This document shows, one piece after another, positions 3,328 to 50,226 of a stretch of 50,248 bases of DNA; positions within the stretch are counted from its first letter, which is position 1; each line of letters begins with the position of its first letter. Source of the stretch: a virus; IMG/VR virus record IMGVR_UViG_3300022200_000065, positions 1 to 50,248 of that record; one strand, 5' to 3'. The translations under genes and the position numbers were made by a program. The notes below the pieces were generated by a model. That model searched no databases and was not told the DNA's origin. It saw nothing but the letters and a program-made list of their open reading frames with translations.

Positions 3328-3341
3328 ACTGTTCCAACGGT
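3328..3341. promoter_or_regulatory. Operator dyad, copy 1 at left early promoter
   Basis: ACTGTTCCAACGGT, one mismatch from the perfect dyad ACTGTT-NN-AACAGT. It lies just past the expected transcription start of the leftward promoter, where a bound protein would block initiation. Confidence 0.65.
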
Positions 3342-3349
3342 ATGACGTC

Positions 3350-3377
3350 ATTATAGCTACTGTTCCAACCGTTGCAA
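3350..3377 (-). promoter_or_regulatory. Left early promoter
   Basis: Minus-strand -10 TATAAT (3350-3355, perfect) and -35 TTGCAA (3372-3377, 4 of 6) with a 16-bp spacer. It directs transcription of the membrane-protein pair and the operon down to 371. The -35 is the centre of one operator dyad and the spacer holds another. An 8-bp palindrome TGACGTCA lies directly after the -10. Confidence 0.7.
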
Positions 3378-3381
3378 CAGT
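3359..3381. promoter_or_regulatory. Two overlapping operator dyads on left early promoter
   Basis: ACTGTTCCAACCGT (3359-3372) and ACCGTTGCAACAGT (3368-3381) overlap by 5 bp; each has one mismatch from ACTGTT-NN-AACAGT. They cover the spacer and -35 of the leftward promoter. Overlap suggests either alternative binding or a cooperative array. Confidence 0.7.
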
Positions 3382-3657
3382 TATTTACTGATTTTCCACT
3401 ATATAAGCAATTATTTTCAATCTGCAATCACATGGTTTTATTCCTTTATAAATCAATGACTTACAATCAATAAATCATCAATTGATATAAGTCGTTGATT
3501 TATAACGATTTACCGATTATCGAAAAAATCATAATCCCCTGGTTCACCAGGCCAGGACTGCTTTCGTCACCGGGTGCGTATAGGAATTAACCAGGGTTCA
3601 AATCACAAAGTGCTGCTTTAATGGAACAATCACCATTGCCCATGAATTTCTGTGGGT

Positions 3658-4126
3658 GAGACACTTTGAGACACTTCTTAAAAACGAAAGTGTCACACCG
3701 TCACCGTTGTAAGTCGTTGATTTGAAATAGAAATAAATGATGGTGTGACAGAATTTTTAAAAGTGTCACAGCAAGTGTCACACCCTATGTTATTGATTTA
3801 TATAATAAAAATGACCTTCTGAGACACTTTGAGCCAAAACCAGCAGGTAGCCATACTACTTTTTTATTCATTGGTAATCATTAATCATGGTTAATCATCA
3901 TTATCGTTGTGACAATTTCTTATATATTACTATTTAAGGTATATCTTTCTTTAAAAAGTAAATAAGTGTCTCAAAAAGGCAAAAAAGCTATATAAATCAA
4001 TAAGTTAAGGTGTGACAAATCGTGTGACACTTTTATATTGAAAGTGTCTCAGCTGGTTAATTCATTAGTAAAATCAGTAACTTACCAACTGGTCTGATGT
4101 GACACTTTGTTTTTGAAAGTGTCTCA
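3658..4126. repeat. Array of eleven AAGTGTC-core motifs
   Basis: The core AAGTGTC or its complement GACACTT occurs 11 times in about 470 bp, extended either to GTGTCTCA or to GTGTCACA. Copies include 3658-3676 (two in tandem), 3686-3699, 3759-3783 (two), 3821-3833, 3964-3973, 4023-4034, 4040-4052, 4098-4108 and 4115-4126. The last four form two inverted pairs of identical layout (4023-4052 and 4098-4126), each an 8-bp stem with a 7-base loop. Iterons of a replication origin or an operator array are the likely roles. Confidence 0.8.
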
Positions 4127-4201
4127 TTTTACCGATTATGATAACAACTATAAATAACCGTGATGATAATCACCATCACCATCACCATTTATGATGTGAC
4201 A

Positions 4202-4233
4202 ACTGTTTAAACTGTGTGTACTGTTACAACTGT
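4202..4233. promoter_or_regulatory. Two operator dyads in the control region
   Basis: ACTGTTTAAACTGT (4202-4215) and ACTGTTACAACTGT (4220-4233), each one mismatch from ACTGTT-NN-AACAGT. A half-site ACTGTTGCAA follows at 4229-4238. Centre spacing is 18 bp. Confidence 0.6.
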
Positions 4234-4372
4234 TGCAAGGTGCTGAACCAGCAAAGCCCGACCCGATGACGATAACCGACCGTGGCACCAGGTATAACCA
4301 GCATCAGTTAAGCTGACCGGTCACAGTAATCAGTATCACAGGTATCAGTGGTATCCGTTGTATCAGGTGTTC

Positions 4373-4386
4373 ACTGTTTAAACGGT
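4373..4386. promoter_or_regulatory. Operator dyad upstream of the rightward operon
   Basis: ACTGTTTAAACGGT, one mismatch from ACTGTT-NN-AACAGT, about 25 bp upstream of the candidate -10 of the rightward operon, hence near its -35 position. Confidence 0.6.
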
Positions 4387-4489: not shown

Positions 4490-4726
4490 ATGAGCAAGGC
4501 ACCGGGGGTATTAGTTCCACCAGTTGAATGTGTGATTGCAGATAATCAATACGTTTATAACCCACGTATTGTAATAAGCAGTATCTGTATGTTCGGTTAT
4601 GTTGGTAGCGACTGCATCAGTTTTGCTTTGTTAGGTGGTCATTGTGCGTCATGGTTTTTTGACACCCAAGTTGAATGCTGCAGAGCCATGCAGAGTATTT
4701 ATGATCAGCTGGGGGTGATTGAATGA
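4490..4726 (+). CDS. Unknown protein, first gene of the rightward operon
   Basis: 78 residues, unrecognised. A GGGGG Shine-Dalgarno precedes the ATG by 5 bases. Contains six cysteines, several in a hydrophobic stretch (VISSICMFGYVGSDCISFALLGGHCASWFF), without a clear CxxC pair. ATGA overlap with the next gene. Confidence 0.65.
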   Translation: MSKAPGVLVPPVECVIADNQYVYNPRIVISSICMFGYVGSDCISFALLGGHCASWFFDTQVECCRAMQSIYDQLGVIE

Positions 4727-8535: not shown

Positions 8536-9297
8536 ATGAGCAAGATTGAAGGTGTAACACTTAACAGCACGTATGCCAAACAGGGTGCTGAACTGGGTAT
8601 CAAGGTAAACAAAACCTTCCTGGTGCCGGTAGAACACATCTACATTGAACCAGGGTTTAACATTCGTGATCTAGACCCTGAACACGTTGAAGCAATCCGC
8701 CAAGGTTACGACGCTGGCCAGCCTATTCCACCAATCACCGTTAAGACCACACCGCAAGGTTTCAAAGTGCTGGACGGTCATCACCGTTATTCAGCAGCCC
8801 AGTTAGCTGGTGTTACCCGCATTGAATGTAAAGAGTTTGCCGGTACTGATGCTGATATCGTGGCGCTGATGGTGACATCATCACAGGGTAAAAACTTATC
8901 ACCCATTGAACGTGGTCGTGCTTATCAGCGTCTGATTAATATGGGTCGTGACGTTGCTGAAATCGCCCAGCTGGTTAAACGTAGTCGTGCCGATGTTGAT
9001 AATCATTTGTTGTTAATGAGCGCCGGTGATGTTGTGTTAAAGGCCGTCAATGCTGGTGTTGTTGGTTCATCTGCTGTTGTGGCTGAACTGCGTAAATCAG
9101 GTGCTGAAGGTGTGGCCACCGTTGAAGCTGCTGTGAAGGTAGCCACCGAACAGGGTAAAAAGGTTAAACCAGCTGATTTAAACCCATTCACTAAAGCAGA
9201 CATCACCCGCGTTATGGAAATCCTGTGTGGTATGAATGCTGCTGGGTTACCTGCTGAACTGGGCGCACTAATCAATAAATACCGTGGGGTGGTGTGA
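8536..9297 (+). CDS. ParB-like nuclease-domain protein
   Basis: 253 residues. Residues about 30-110 form a ParB/Sulfiredoxin-type domain: LVPVEHIYIEPGFNIR, then PPITVKTTPQGFKVLDG and the phosphate-binding box GHHRYSAAQLAG (81-92), a variant of the GERRYRA box. A helical DNA-binding part with NLSPIERGRAYQRLINMGRD and an HTH-like VAEIAQLVKRSRADVDNHLLL follows. In phages such proteins act as CTP-dependent DNA binders, nucleases or regulators. No ParA is present, so plasmid-like partition is unlikely. Confidence 0.85.
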   Translation: MSKIEGVTLNSTYAKQGAELGIKVNKTFLVPVEHIYIEPGFNIRDLDPEHVEAIRQGYDAGQPIPPITVKTTPQGFKVLDGHHRYSAAQLAGVTRIECKEFAGTDADIVALMVTSSQGKNLSPIERGRAYQRLINMGRDVAEIAQLVKRSRADVDNHLLLMSAGDVVLKAVNAGVVGSSAVVAELRKSGAEGVATVEAAVKVATEQGKKVKPADLNPFTKADITRVMEILCGMNAAGLPAELGALINKYRGVV

Positions 9298-12965: not shown

Positions 12966-13342
12966 CACTACAACACAAAACAATGCACAGCGCCGGTGCT
13001 GACTTATCAGCCACTAAGAAAGTCATCGTACCTGGTTACGCCACGGTACTGGTGCCAACCGGTGAACGTATGCCCAAAGATACACCTGCTGGGTTTTTCG
13101 GTATGTTAACGCTTCGGTCATCCGTGGCGCTGAAAACATCATTATTTTTGAAAAATGGTGTGGGTATCATTGACCGGGACTACCCTGATGAAATCATGGT
13201 GATGGTCTGCAACATAAGTCCTGAAGATTACGTGATTGAACAGGGTGATCGGATTGCACAACTGATTATCGTGCCATACATCTACGCTGGCGCTGTTCTG
13301 GACGTAACCAGGTCTGGTGGCTTCGGGTCAACAGATAAATGA
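12962..13342 (+). CDS. dut: dUTP diphosphatase
   Basis: 126 residues, a trimeric-type dUTPase of slightly short length. Hydrolyses dUTP to dUMP and pyrophosphate, keeping uracil out of phage DNA and feeding thymidylate synthesis. All five motifs are visible: AGADL (11-15), RSS (52-54), NGVGIIDRDYPDEI (65-78, with the base-binding residues), GDRIAQL (95-101) and the C-terminal RSGGFGST (117-124). ATGA overlaps on both sides. Confidence 0.95.
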   Translation: MTLQHKTMHSAGADLSATKKVIVPGYATVLVPTGERMPKDTPAGFFGMLTLRSSVALKTSLFLKNGVGIIDRDYPDEIMVMVCNISPEDYVIEQGDRIAQLIIVPYIYAGAVLDVTRSGGFGSTDK

Positions 13343-13623
13343 AGGTAGTCACCCAGGGGAGTCAGTCAGCAGCAAGGCTGGCTCTTTTGCTACGGTTTAC
13401 CAAGATAGACAGCGAGGACATGATCGACGCCTTGAATGATTATCTAGTGAAGGGGTTGGCCAGTAGCACTGCTGCAGATATAAACGGGGTAGACCGGGCG
13501 AACTTAAACCGGGCTGTCAACACAATCAACGACGCTGCCATAGTTGTTGAGGAAATTAAAAACCTTGATTACCAGGGTAGTTATTTGAGTCACTTAAAGG
13601 ACAATTCTGATGCAAAAAGTTGA
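13339..13623 (+). CDS. Small HTH protein, KorA/TrfB- or PapB-like
   Basis: 94 residues. Residues about 30-60 (ALNDYLVKGLASSTAADI and GVDRANLNRAVNTIN) have the helix-turn-helix layout of KorA/TrfB and PapB-type regulators. Starts by ATGA overlap with dut, but the first 26 codons cover a terminator-like hairpin (13362-13388), so translation might instead begin at Met27. A candidate for the regulator of the ACTGTT dyads, though nothing links them directly. Confidence 0.65.
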   Translation: MKVVTQGSQSAARLALLLRFTKIDSEDMIDALNDYLVKGLASSTAADINGVDRANLNRAVNTINDAAIVVEEIKNLDYQGSYLSHLKDNSDAKS

Positions 13624-20672: not shown

Positions 20673-20936
20673 CTATTGTTGGTTATTTTTGGCGGTGATA
20701 TATTTCGGGTGTGCAAACACAAACTTTGCTTGTTCAATACAACTCAAGCTAATTCGTGATGATTTATCCCGTAAGTATTGACAGACTGTAGATTCTTTAA
20801 GACCGGTTGCAGCAATAACAGCTTCAAGGCCATGTTTCTCACACATCTGAACAAGTTCAGCTTGTCTTTCACGCATTGTTTCCCGTTCATCACGACTGGC
20901 GATAATCCGTTTAATGGTGATCTGCATATTTGTCAT
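20673..20936 (-). CDS. Small HTH DNA-binding protein
   Basis: 87 residues from the ATG at 20936, which overlaps the upstream stop (ATGA); an earlier start four codons up is less likely. Residues 32-60 (EKHGLEAVIAATGLKESTVCQYLRDK) form a clear helix-turn-helix, with a basic N-terminal helix (TIKRIIASRDERETMRERQ). Could regulate transcription or help load the replication complex. One of two candidates for binding the ACTGTT dyads. Confidence 0.7.
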   Translation of the reverse strand: MTNMQITIKRIIASRDERETMRERQAELVQMCEKHGLEAVIAATGLKESTVCQYLRDKSSRISLSCIEQAKFVFAHPKYITAKNNQQ

Positions 20937-26403: not shown

Positions 26404-28473
26404 ATGTCCATTACATTCCCGGCAAAGCGTAAAACAGAATGGCCCTGGCCAAACGATTACGGCTACGATGAAGAATCATACCCAAACTTTTACAGTCTTG
26501 CTGCAAGGCATATTCAGACAAATGCACTTTACGTTTTCGAGATTAGCGACTGGCGGGATGACACTGACGCATTGATAAACTGGATGTACTGGTTACATCA
26601 GAATAAATGCAGGATGCTTGGTTTTAATAATGTTGGTTATGATTACCTGTTGATGCACTTTATTTTTATGAATTGCAAAGCCTGGGGAAGTTATAGCGGT
26701 AGTCAAAAGGCTTACATGATTTACCAATATTCAGCAAACCTTTTTAAAGGTGAAAACGAAACTGAAGATGGATACCGTGAAAGACGTTACAAAACGTCAA
26801 TCAGACCTAAAGATGTGATTATTCCACAAATTGATTTATTCAAGATTTACCACTTTGACAACCAGGCCAAAAATACCAGTTTAAAAGTTTTACAAATCAA
26901 CATGAGGTCGAAGAACGTTAGAGATTTACCAATTCCACCAGGTACACGAATTACTGCTGAACAAAGGCCGGTGTTGCTTTTGTACAACGTTAACGATACT
27001 GATGAAACCATTGGGTTTGCAATGTTCAGCGTTGACGAAATAAAGCTGCGGGAAACCATGTCAGCCAAGTTTGGTATTGATATGACCAACTTCAGTGAGG
27101 GTAAAATGGGTGAAGAAATAATCAGGCTGCAGCTGAATAACGCTGGCCTGAACACCCGAGGCAAAACACCAAGGGCGTCGATTGCACTTCGTGATGTAAT
27201 TTTTCCGTATATCAGATTCAATCACCCCGAGTTTCAACGAGTTCACCAATTCTTACTGGGTGAAGTGATCACTAAAACCAAACTAGACAAAAAGGACGAT
27301 GACACTGAAGGTTACCCATGTGCTGTAATCAATGGGTTTGGTTGGCAGTTTGGTCGTGGTGGTATGCACGCTTCTGTTTTAAGTTCGATTATCAAAGCTG
27401 ACGATTATTACGAAATTATTGACATTGACGTTATCAGCTTTTACCCGAGAACCAGCATCGTCAACAAGACTTACCCAGCACACTTAGGGCCGCAATTCTG
27501 TGAAGAATACGACGGTGTTTTCACAATGCGTGGCCAATACCCTAAAGATAAATTTCCGATGGAAAACTTGGCACTGAAATATTCTTTGAACGTACCTTAT
27601 GGTAAGTCAAACAGCCCGTTTAGCTTTCTCTATGACCCACAGTACACAATGACTACGACGATCAACTGTCAATTATTGATTTGTATGTTGGGTGAATGGT
27701 TAATGCAAATACCAGACATCAGTTTTATTCAGGTGAACACAGACGGTATCACATTCAAGGTACCACGTGTTTTCCGTGGTCATGTTGAAAGTATTTGTAA
27801 AGCTTGGGAACAGTTCACCTGTCTGGAACTCGAATACGCTTTTTATCAGGCTATGTATATTCGTGATGTAAACAACTACATTGCCCACGCTGTTAACGGT
27901 AAAATCAAAAGCAAAGGTGCCTATGTTCACAAGGAAATCCCGTGGCACAAAGACCACAGCAGCGTAATTATTGCAAGGGCTGTTGAAGGGTATTTGTTAC
28001 GTGGTGAAGATGTTGTACAGCAAATTATGGCTTGTCGTGACCCGTTTGATTTCATGATCAAGGCCAAGGTACCACGGTCATCAAAACTTATGATGTTTAA
28101 CCAAGATGGAACCAGAACGGAACTACAGAACACCACCAGATATTATGTTGCTGTTAGTGGTGGTCGTCTGGTTAAAATCATGCCACCAACACCGGCAATG
28201 CGTGAACACTGGAATACCGGCACCCATTACATCAGGCACCGTGACCAGGATTACAAGGTTGTGAAACCTGATGGTAAACGTCCTGCTAAAACTTATGACC
28301 TGGTGCCACTGAATCAGATAGCACCCGAACCCTACGACCGGGAGATTTCATTGGGTAGTAAATGGCTGGCTGCAGACTGTGCCAATGTTGATGATTTCAA
28401 TTGGTCAAACCTGAATTACAACTATTATATCGAAGAAGCACGCAAATTAATTGACCCACTGTTAGAACAGTGA
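26404..28473 (+). CDS. DNA polymerase, family B
   Basis: 689 residues. Exonuclease motifs: Exo I YDEESYPNFY near residue 25, Exo II FNNVGYDY near 73-80, Exo III YNVND near 194-198. Polymerase motif A DIDVISFYPRTS (about 340-351), motif B LKYSLNVPYG (about 392-401), motif C VNTDGITF (444-451). Motif C has NTDG where most family B enzymes have DTDS; Asp447 and the motif A Asp keep the two metal ligands. Short for a replicative B polymerase, as in Enc34-like phages. It copies the genome with proofreading. Confidence 0.88.
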   Translation: MSITFPAKRKTEWPWPNDYGYDEESYPNFYSLAARHIQTNALYVFEISDWRDDTDALINWMYWLHQNKCRMLGFNNVGYDYLLMHFIFMNCKAWGSYSGSQKAYMIYQYSANLFKGENETEDGYRERRYKTSIRPKDVIIPQIDLFKIYHFDNQAKNTSLKVLQINMRSKNVRDLPIPPGTRITAEQRPVLLLYNVNDTDETIGFAMFSVDEIKLRETMSAKFGIDMTNFSEGKMGEEIIRLQLNNAGLNTRGKTPRASIALRDVIFPYIRFNHPEFQRVHQFLLGEVITKTKLDKKDDDTEGYPCAVINGFGWQFGRGGMHASVLSSIIKADDYYEIIDIDVISFYPRTSIVNKTYPAHLGPQFCEEYDGVFTMRGQYPKDKFPMENLALKYSLNVPYGKSNSPFSFLYDPQYTMTTTINCQLLICMLGEWLMQIPDISFIQVNTDGITFKVPRVFRGHVESICKAWEQFTCLELEYAFYQAMYIRDVNNYIAHAVNGKIKSKGAYVHKEIPWHKDHSSVIIARAVEGYLLRGEDVVQQIMACRDPFDFMIKAKVPRSSKLMMFNQDGTRTELQNTTRYYVAVSGGRLVKIMPPTPAMREHWNTGTHYIRHRDQDYKVVKPDGKRPAKTYDLVPLNQIAPEPYDREISLGSKWLAADCANVDDFNWSNLNYNYYIEEARKLIDPLLEQ

Positions 28474-28480
28474 TTATACT
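28451..28480 (+). promoter_or_regulatory. Strong internal promoter behind the polymerase gene
   Basis: -35 TTGACC (28451-28456, 5 of 6), 18-bp spacer, -10 TATACT (28475-28480, 5 of 6). It straddles the end of the polymerase gene and would give separate transcription of 28508-29028. Two perfect operator dyads lie on it. Confidence 0.7.
28458..28471. promoter_or_regulatory. Perfect operator dyad in promoter spacer
   Basis: ACTGTT-AG-AACAGT, perfect 6+6 inverted repeat, extended by one more pair to CACTGTTAGAACAGTG. Fills the spacer of the promoter at 28451-28480. Confidence 0.8.
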
Positions 28481-28491
28481 GTTGCAACAGT
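28478..28491. promoter_or_regulatory. Perfect operator dyad overlapping -10 and start
   Basis: ACTGTTGCAACAGT, a 14-bp perfect palindrome whose centre is 20 bp from that of the first dyad. It covers the end of the -10 and the start site, so binding would block transcription. Confidence 0.8.
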
Positions 28492-28507: not shown

Positions 28508-28735
28508 ATGATCATTAAAGGTTTGAAGTATGCAAGGGCAAGGTTTACCGAATTGGTGGACGCTGCGCGTGATGGTAACGAGTCCATTTTTATTGAAATG
28601 GGCAACAGTCGTAAACTGAATGTAGGTTACAAACTGGTGAAAATGACACCTGAAGAATTGACCGAAGCAGTGAAACAGCATCCTGAACTTTGCATACCGA
28701 AACCAGGTCTACCACAACCGAAGGTATTAATATGA
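28508..28735 (+). CDS. Unknown small protein under operator control
   Basis: 75 residues. Begins MIIKGLKYARARFTELVDAARD, ends with a Pro-rich tail (CIPKPGLPQPKVLI). Sequence style recalls small regulatory or antitoxin-like proteins, but no family is certain. It directly follows the promoter with two operator dyads, so it may be the regulator's own gene or a tightly controlled effector. Confidence 0.6.
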   Translation: MIIKGLKYARARFTELVDAARDGNESIFIEMGNSRKLNVGYKLVKMTPEELTEAVKQHPELCIPKPGLPQPKVLI

Positions 28736-29028
28736 AATGTGATTGCCCTGGTTGTGTTCGAGAAAGAAAAGGCTTAGGTGGTTATCAACCATGTAGCAAA
28801 TCACCTAAGTTATCCAACCCACCACAAAACAAAGGAAACATTATGACTACTACTGTAATTGTTCAGGCGCATTGTGCCAGTGATAAAGAAGTTATCGTGA
28901 CTATCGAAGGTCTTAACGACGGGGATGGTAATGACACTGTGAAAGTGTTGCAGGACGGCGAGACTTACCAAAACGTTGTTTTCGATGACCGGGTTATTTC
29001 CATCTGTGAACAGTACAAAGCTGATTAA
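28732..29028 (+). CDS. Small phage protein with possible internal start
   Basis: 98 residues from 28732 (ATGA overlap, GAAGG upstream). The first 37 residues carry a Cys motif (MKCDCPGCVRERKG). An ATG at 28843 has a much better site (AAAGGAAAC) and would give a 61-residue protein MTTTVIVQAHCASDKEVIV..., which resembles a short protein common in phages. Both products may be made from one frame. Function unknown. Terminator follows at 29036. Confidence 0.6.
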   Translation: MKCDCPGCVRERKGLGGYQPCSKSPKLSNPPQNKGNIMTTTVIVQAHCASDKEVIVTIEGLNDGDGNDTVKVLQDGETYQNVVFDDRVISICEQYKAD

Positions 29029-29035
29029 TTTAGTC

Positions 29036-29075
29036 GCCCCAGGTAAACTATCCCTGTAAGACCTGGGGCATTTTT
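29036..29075 (+). terminator. Rho-independent terminator of the helicase-polymerase operon
   Basis: Perfect 8-bp stem (GCCCCAGG / CCTGGGGC, 18-base loop) followed by A-TTTTT on the plus strand. It ends 28508-29028 transcription and abuts the convergent lysozyme-like gene, whose stop lies in the T run. Confidence 0.85.
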
Positions 29076-35629: not shown

Positions 35630-38600
35630 TTAGCCCCCTACCTTAGACGCACGTTGAATATCTGATACTAATTTGCTAAGTGAGTTTTGGTCCATTTGTG
35701 CCTTATAACTGCTATTACCTACTTGCAACTGTAACACAACCTGCTGACCATTTCCGCTAGTGGTAGATTGTGCACTAGTGGTAGATTGTGCACTAGTGGT
35801 AGATTGTGCACTAGTGGTAGATTGTGTGTTTGGTGTAGTTGGTTTACCAAACTGTTGTTTATACTCTATGTCCTGGGCCTGTTTCAATTTAGTAATTGCT
35901 TCATCAATTTTACTAACCAGGGTGGCATCACCTGCTAATTTAGCCTTTTCCATTAATGCTAAATATTCATCAATCTCAGTTTTAAATTTACGTTTTATAA
36001 TTGATTCCTCATTACCTAATGCTTTATCTAATCGGTCCTGTACACTTAGTAACGCATCATCAACAACACCGTTTAAGGCTTGTATTTCATCTTTTGCTTT
36101 TTGAATTGCAGCCAATAATGGATCTAGCTGTTGTTCAGAAAGGGTATACAACGAGTTATTTGCTTGGTAACTTATTTTTTCCAACTGAGCTAATGATAAG
36201 TTTCCTTGGTCAAGAGTATCGATCAATTTCCGATAAGATAAAGTCTGTCCGATAATTCTTTGTTCACGGGCAAAACCTTTATCAAACTCATTAGCTAGTG
36301 TTTTCCAGAACTGACCAGTAACACCGGCATTTTGCCAAATCTTTTCACCGAGTTCATCATACCGTTTAGTAAGTTCACTAATTGATTTATTACTTAAATC
36401 AAATTGTTGGTTAAGATAATTACTAGCTTCACCATACAAGCTAATTGCTGTTGTTGATTTAGTAACAGCCTCTGTGTGTATACCTTGTGTTGCACTAGCG
36501 CTAGACGTTGCACTATTATTTTCACGAACGATTTCAGTATTCTCACGAATGACACTATTAATTTCGTTCAGCGCCTGGGTCAATGATCTGGTGCGTTCTT
36601 CATATTCTGCCTTTGTCAATGAACCAGCTTCGAACTGGCGCTGCAATAACAACAATTCCTGTTGATATTGACGCTGCATAACGACCAGCTGGCCATAGTT
36701 GGCGTTCTCTATGGCGATTAGCTGACTCTGTTCCGTCCGTAAACCTTTTAACTTTTGTTCTTCAACAGCAAGTGCAGCTAAGGTTCTGGCACGGTCTGCA
36801 GCAATTTGATTACCAGCCTCTAAAGTTTCGTTGTACTCTGTAATCTTTTTTTCAGACTGTAAAATTTCGTCAGCAAATTTGGCCTGACCCAATGTGTTTG
36901 CAGTAACAGCTTTACCGAATGTGCCTACTGACTGTGTGGCAATTGTATAATTGTCACTTAACGCACCAATTGCTGCAGTAAAATCAGCCTCTGTAATAGC
37001 ACCATCCTGGTACTGTTGGAATAATTCTTTACGGGCTGCAAGGTTTTCTTCAGTTGACGCAGTATTTGCTTTTACTGCTTCAACTTGTTCTGTTACAACA
37101 ATGTTGTATTGTGACAAAGATGCAGATAACTCATTAATGGCCAATGCAGCAGCTTCATCAGTAACCTTACCGGCTTCGCGTAACGCTTTGACATTTGCAA
37201 TTGATTCTTCAACTAGTGTTGCTTTTGCAAGATACTCAGTCATCGACACGTTGATACCGATCTGAGCATTTACCAGCTGTTCAATACTACCAATTTCATC
37301 CTGCTTGGCTTCAGCTGATTGGCGGGACGCTTCTGCACTTTGTAATTTTAACTGTGTTTCAATTTCCTGTTCACGGTTAGCCCGGACAAGGCTGGCAGTC
37401 AGTTGACGGTATAAACCATCCTCAGCGGCTGAATACTCATTTTTTGCAAGAATAGTTGTGATTGATGCGCGTTGTTCAGCAGATAAATTGGTAATAGCAC
37501 CTTTATATTTTTCAGCAGCGTCTTTTAACCCTTCAAAAGCGATAGACGATTTGCCGGCCATCCGGTCTTGTGCGTCACTGATATCTTTTAAATCTTGATC
37601 AATGCTGTTCTTTGTTTCACGCATTAACTCTTTGTACCGGTTCAGACCAGTTTCATCAAAATTCAGGCCAAGTGTTTCATTACCAATTTTTTGCAATTCT
37701 AACGTTGCTACGATAGCGCCTTGCAACCCTAATACCATCAGATTCAGTGCACCTGTTACGGTATTAGCTGAAATCTTGATAGACCCCATTACGTTTTCAA
37801 GGGCACTAAAACCAGAGTCGTCTGAACTGAACGTGTTTAATAGATTATCAAGTACACCCAATGTTTCTGTTAACCCTGTAACAGCTTCAGGTAAAAGTTC
37901 CATTAAGCTAACAACTTCATCAGTTGTTTGGGCAATAACATCACCGACAGCGTTTATGGTTTTTTCGGTTTCGTCGCTGAATGCTTCACCGATGGATTTT
38001 TTAAGCACCCCGAATTTATTATCTAACCGACCTAATGCAGATTCCTGATTGGCATATGCTTTGGCTGCTTCCTTCATGTGGGCATTACCAGCAACCCACT
38101 GTTCATTACTGAGTTTTAACGCGGTTTCAAGCCTGTCAGTGCGACCAGCTAGGGTACCCAATACTGTGAGTGCTTCAGAACCTTCAATGCCCATCTGACG
38201 CAACACAGTTGACATCTGGCCACCTGATTCGTTGATATCATCAAGACCCTTTAAAAATGCCAACAGAATTTTTTCAGGTTCGGTACCAAATGAATCAACA
38301 ATTTCTTGCCCAGTCATCTTAGTGATCAGCGCAAGGCGTTCCATATTTTCACCACCCGTTACGGTGGCTTCTTTAATCACACCAGCAAGGCGTTGAATGG
38401 CCGTCCGGCTACGTTCAGCAGGTTGACCTAATTCAGCAAGTGTTGCACCAACTGCAGCAGCAGCTTTTGACGACAATTCGATTTCACGAGTACCGGCAAC
38501 AATCTCTTTAGTCATTTGTACTATGTCAGCTTCACTGGCTGCGAAATCGTTACCCAGTGCCACTACAGCAGACGAAATGTTTTGAATTGCAGGGATGCCC

Positions 38601-50193: not shown

Positions 50194-50222
50194 ATTATGG
50201 TTCAAATGGATTACGGTTGCAA
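50194..50222 (-). promoter_or_regulatory. Right-end promoter of the virion operon
   Basis: Minus strand: -35 TTGCAA (50217-50222), 17-bp spacer, -10 CATAAT (50194-50199, 5 of 6). Only 27 bp before the first virion-operon ATG. The same TTGCAA as in the left early promoter forms the core of an operator dyad. Confidence 0.65.
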
Positions 50223-50226
50223 CAGT
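50213..50226. promoter_or_regulatory. Operator dyad on the virion-operon -35
   Basis: ACTGTTGCAACCGT on the minus strand, one mismatch from ACTGTT-NN-AACAGT, covering the -35. Binding here would compete with sigma, or activate if acting as a class II site. Confidence 0.65.

Follow-up and report, generated by a model that had tools for sequence, protein, structure and literature searches.

Paired putative operators on a promoter at the 3′ end of a viral DNA polymerase gene, and the dyad set to which they belong in related marine phages

The family-B DNA polymerase gene (polB) of the virus recorded as IMGVR_UViG_3300022200_000065 ends in a promoter-like sequence that carries two short inverted repeats, which raises the question of what these repeats control and which protein, if any, binds to them. 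The window analyzed here is the entire IMG/VR virus record of 50,248 nucleotides, and the features under discussion are located in Table 1. A first-pass annotation had described tandem dyads 20 bp apart on a TTGACC-18-TATACT promoter ahead of two small genes; the sequences and coordinates that it gave for the dyads and the promoter are correct, and the arrangement is borne out by the sequence. The arms of dyad 1 are 7 bp long and perfect, its two central bases (AG) not being self-complementary, and dyad 2 is self-complementary over its full length; the distance of 20 bp is from centre to centre. The promoter is the sole promoter-like match between positions 28300 and 29200 and outscores all 30 of 30 flank-shuffled controls, whereas the plain promoter scan by itself is not significant (one match found, 1.8 expected in shuffles). 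Downstream follow the 75-residue gene at 28508-28735, the gene at 28732-29028, a hairpin, and tail genes transcribed convergently.

Table 1. Positions of the promoter elements, dyads and genes discussed, in window coordinates.
Feature	Position	Strand	Remarks
-35 hexamer TTGACC	28451-28456	+	within the last codons of polB (I-D-P); register kept in relatives
Operator dyad 1 (putative), CACTGTTAGAACAGTG	28457-28472	.	in the promoter spacer, extending into the polB stop codon
-10 hexamer TATACT	28475-28480	+	from the promoter scan with flank-shuffled controls
Operator dyad 2 (putative), ACTGTTGCAACAGT	28478-28491	.	across the -10 hexamer and the predicted start
Family-B DNA polymerase gene, 689 aa	26404-28473	+	last codons hold the -35 hexamer and dyad 1
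Small protein, 75 aa, first gene of the promoter	28508-28735	+	weakly Phd/YefM-like N-terminus; leading candidate repressor
Second gene of the operon, 98 aa	28732-29028	+	inner ATG at 28843 also possible; homologue not found
Terminator-like hairpin, then T run	29052-29068	+	separates the operon from the convergent tail genes
Three dyads (3328, 3359, 3368)	3328-3381	.	on the TTGCAA-16-TATAAT promoter of the leftward early operon
Two dyads, equal to four 9-bp units	4202-4233	.	upstream of the rightward early operon
Dyad	4373-4386	.	upstream of the rightward early operon
Dyad	50213-50226	.	upstream of the leftward terminase operon
PapB-family (PF03333) protein	13339-13623	+	rival candidate for dyad binder
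Helix-turn-helix protein, 87 aa	20673-20936	-	rival candidate for dyad binder

The two dyads were also said to be the best-conserved copies of a phage-wide set, and both parts of that statement hold. Nine sites in the window match ACTGTTNNAACAGT with at most one mismatch (3328, 3359, 3368, 4202, 4220, 4373, 28458, 28478 and 50213), permuted half-sites yielding a mean of 0.1, and the core ACNGTTNNAACNGT likewise occurs nine times, against 0.058 expected from composition. The sites at 28458 and 28478 are the only exact copies of ACTGTTNNAACAGT in the window, and the copy at the polB promoter is the most position-conserved one seen. The dyads of the window sit upstream of four operons: the two early ones, leftward and rightward, the small one that follows polB, and the terminase operon. 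When 71 sites of the set were ranked against shuffled flanks for overlap with a sigma-70 promoter, 25 fell in the top tenth, and the best overlaps include the site behind polB, most of its relatives and the group at 3328-3381. Many dyads do no better than their shuffled controls, so that promoter overlap is established for the site behind polB and some others, not for all.

At 3359-3381, 4202-4233 and 4373 the dyads form part of longer head-to-tail arrays with a 9-bp unit, ACNGTNNNN; none of the relatives checked has such arrays. The AT-rich intergenic stretch from 3380 to 4200 is densely filled with AAGTGTC(A/T)CA and TAAGTCGTTGATTTATA, in direct and inverted orientation, and may be a replication origin. 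At the start of the record (1-300), GATGATTAACGATGAT and GATGTGCT are repeated in a long tract of low complexity.

The nearest named phages, judged by the polymerase (~50% identity), are Shewanella phage 1/44 and Vibrio phages 1.049.O, 1.050.O, 1.055.O, 1.083.O and 2.096.O, and Shewanella is the host of most of them. Five named relatives carry 11-17 dyad sites each. Six phages together have 75 core ACNGTTNNAACNGT sites, a count that is inflated by the close kinship of some of their genomes, against about 0.05 expected per genome (about 0.3 in all). The commonest spacing between neighbours in these six phages is 20 bp (10 of 27 pairs, some of which were inherited by close relatives), and the centre of the core site is purine-pyrimidine in 62 of the 75. 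Position 3/12 is loosely constrained, T..T outnumbering T..A, and perfect palindromy therefore need not equal strongest binding. An unbiased tally of gapped palindromes put ACTGT-N4-ACAGT in first place, alone or jointly, in four of the five named genomes examined, 1/44 being led by other repeats.

Behind polB, six related sequences (five genomes and one fragment) have the promoter TTGACC-18-TA(T/C)A(C/G)T and the dyad at its -10 hexamer in an unchanged register, with one mismatch in the -10 dyad of 1.083.O and 2.096.O. In these relatives the spacer dyad is degenerate, at a distance of 16 bp from dyad 2; a perfect pair at 20 bp on the promoter behind polB is thus peculiar to the window, although pairs with that spacing reappear in other promoter regions of the relatives. 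Pseudoalteromonas phage B8b, which is more distant, also has dyads at the matching place behind polB, two of them with a spacing of 17 bp, and a B8b-like contig of 48 kb has eight core sites. No dyad with at most one mismatch was found in viral loci with a more distant polB (L003-L014). A viral contig with a 20-bp pair (L026) lacks Phd-like and PapB-like proteins, and its pair was regarded as an unrelated repeat. A limited search of open-access papers found no prior description of the dyad.

Two phages have dyad sets of a different kind. Edwardsiella phage MSW-3 (L024) has its own dyad, TTGAC-N6-GTCAA, at 4287, 19858, 28748, 34326 and 36927; these copies are in or beside intergenic stretches, one of them behind polB, and the copy at 36927 is just upstream of gp58, a TetR-like helix-turn-helix protein. 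Vibrio phage LMAVpVPP (L046) has seven copies, mostly intergenic, of the phage-wide dyad TGTAA-N7-TTACA, often in the form TGTAAAGTNACTTTACA, at 4592, 7226, 17948, 20981, 26863, 30673 and 32265.

A dyad that recurs at several promoters within one phage and is conserved in its relatives has the make-up of a phage-wide operator regulon, and a phage-encoded repressor, whichever protein it may be, probably works through these operators. A sigma-70-type promoter within the 3′ end of polB would drive the two-gene operon, and the two dyads, one in the spacer and one across the -10 hexamer and start, would present themselves on one face of the helix about two turns apart. A small dimeric phage protein is envisaged to occupy both, probably cooperatively, and to block RNA polymerase sterically. 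The same protein on the leftward early, rightward early and terminase promoters would act as a phage-wide timing repressor, these promoters and that of the operon being shut down as the product accumulates. Lysogenic immunity is unlikely to be the purpose of such a regulator, because a search for tyrosine integrases (PF00589), with ACA1 as positive control, found none in the window, the five named relatives or the B8b relative.

As to the identity of the protein, the first-pass annotation had proposed the 75-residue product of the gene at 28508, which is plausible. This product may be the binder, autoregulated like a Phd/YefM antitoxin without a toxin, an assignment that is tentative and falls somewhat short of an even chance. 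The gene is always accompanied by the dyad and was found in no searched phage that lacks the dyad. Its homologues (43-48% conserved; B8b_25 in phage B8b) lie behind the polB promoter in every genome that has the gene. In four of the seven group members (the window, 1.083.O, 2.096.O and the L027 fragment) the homologue is the first gene; in three of the seven an unrelated gene lies between the promoter and the homologue, which counts against the model. Because the dyad phages are interrelated, co-occurrence cannot decide among the three candidates of Table 1, and it modestly favours the 28508 product. The 28508 product as a single query matched nothing in a viral scan, the alignment of its family matched two viral loci, and a genome scan with the same alignment found no bacterial homologue.

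The resemblance of the 28508 product to antitoxins is slight. Its matches to PF02604 (E = 0.0017, 18.5 bits) and TIGR01552 (E = 0.017, 14.4 bits) fall below the respective cut-offs of 29.8 and 20.8 bits, its relatives gave no match to PF02604, and a profile comparison of the family with YefM was not significant. Arginine 10 is invariant in eight of eight homologues and falls opposite R10 of YefM, although this alignment does not itself reach significance. In YefM, two N-terminal arginines take part in operator recognition, and the paired palindromes of the YefM system overlap the promoter (PMC3920265). AlphaFold models of the 28508 family are of low confidence (pLDDT 49 and 55). No toxin gene was recognized beside 28508, the neighbour at 28732-29028 having no family match and not being shared by the relatives. 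The B8b homologue (L045, 16705-16938) has a proline-rich stretch at its N-terminus; in several relatives the stretch is C-terminal.

That the dyads are bound instead by the small helix-turn-helix protein (20673-20936) as a Cro-like dimer, the 28508 product being merely a target gene with another job, appears unlikely. The recognition helix KES[TS]..QYLR.K is almost invariant in six of six dyad phages, one member of the family weakly matches PF09048 (Cro), and dyads of 14 bp fit dimers of the Cro type; in MSW-3, the slot of this gene is taken by the TetR-like protein with that phage's own dyad just upstream. However, no dyad is near the helix-turn-helix gene in any of the six phages, and the LMAVp phage has a homologue of the protein without the dyad, in place of which it has its own. 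The recognition helix of B8b (NVST) resembles that of LMAVp (KVST), yet the dyad is present in B8b and absent from LMAVp.

A role for the PapB-family protein (13339-13623), which would read ACNGT half-sites 9 bp apart and oligomerize along arrays, is distinctly unlikely. PapB is described as recognizing 9-bp repeats, and the window has head-to-tail 9-bp arrays at 3359, 4202 and 4373, but the relatives have no 9-bp triples. The protein of the window scores above the PF03333 cut-off (30.3 versus 29.4 bits), and the family, a relative of which, FocB, has a solved structure, is represented in six of six dyad phages (below the cut-off in three) and in the B8b relative. Against this, four phages (X14, 1.211, ACA1 and AeroV_348) have a PapB-like protein but no dyad set, and the window protein shares no more than 21-36% identity with the others, although the dyad has not changed. 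In relatives (L019-L023) the PapB-family gene is located between terminase genes; the window has it in the rightward early operon. A ParB-like protein encoded at 8536 was discarded as a candidate binder, since 1.049.O, with its 14 core sites, yielded no homologue.

Repression by a phage protein, rather than activation, is the preferred reading of the polB-end promoter. Its spacer is long (18 bp) and not all dyads overlap a good promoter, as might be expected if the bound protein were an activator, but dyad 2 lies across the -10 hexamer and the predicted start, a position typical of repressors, and the hexamers are already near consensus; activation is accordingly judged improbable. It is highly improbable that a host transcription factor binds the dyads and thereby plugs the phage promoters into a host regulon. 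Every relative with a named host infects marine gammaproteobacteria, but a scan for the 20-bp pair in 84,980 species, each represented by a single genome, found it in no Shewanella or Vibrio genome, and the few matches were in unrelated bacteria, mostly metagenome assemblies. LexA has the consensus CTGT-N8-ACAG, whereas the spacing of the dyads is CTGT-N4-ACAG, which is not that of a LexA SOS box. The absence of the pair from Shewanella and Vibrio and the lack of a detected tyrosine integrase make a phage-encoded regulator in probably non-temperate phages likely. That the dyads are chance palindromes or transcript hairpins to which no protein binds may practically be dismissed: short inverted repeats are common, and the B8b copy at 2490 doubles as the stem of a terminator-like hairpin, but there are 75 core sites where about 0.3 are expected, promoters are overlapped, and the position behind polB is the same in the window, the six related sequences and B8b.

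The dyad set gives an almost unannotated group of marine phages a regulatory map at the level of promoters, and three small conserved proteins can be named, one of which should be the master regulator of the phage. If the Phd/YefM-like protein is the binder, an antitoxin-type fold would serve as a stand-alone phage repressor.

Several known systems invite comparison. Operators of lambdoid CI/Cro and of phage 434 are short tandem dyads on the -35 and -10 hexamers, about two helix turns apart, as are the dyads described here; unlike in those phages, a tyrosine integrase was not found, and the gene for the Cro-like candidate lies far from the dyads. With the PapB/FocB regulators of fimbriae these phages share a PF03333 protein that is conserved wherever the dyad set occurs, but the PapB-bearing phages X14, 1.211, ACA1 and AeroV_348 are without the set. 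The stoperators of Cluster A mycobacteriophages number about 30 per genome. They resemble the dyad set in that one repressor-type site is repeated over the phage genome (PMC6550527, PMC9283540), and differ in being asymmetric and belonging to temperate phages, whereas the dyads are symmetric, located at promoters, and found in phages without a detected tyrosine integrase. The Phd-Doc and YefM-YoeB systems differ in having a TGTACA core and a spacing of 12 bp, where the phage motif is ACTGTTNNAACAGT and the spacing is 20 bp; the phage sites are genome-wide, no recognizable toxin gene is alongside, and the match to the antitoxins is below cut-offs. They are alike in that a small antitoxin gene directly follows a promoter overlapped by paired palindromes (PMC3920265), and the 28508 product has the weak N-terminal match and the aligned R10. 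That a Phd/YefM-like antitoxin without its toxin was recruited in non-temperate marine phages as an autoregulated global repressor, with its promoter in the last codons of polB, is somewhat doubtful. A phage repressor with its operator regulon is a known kind of system, to which these phages would add a member.
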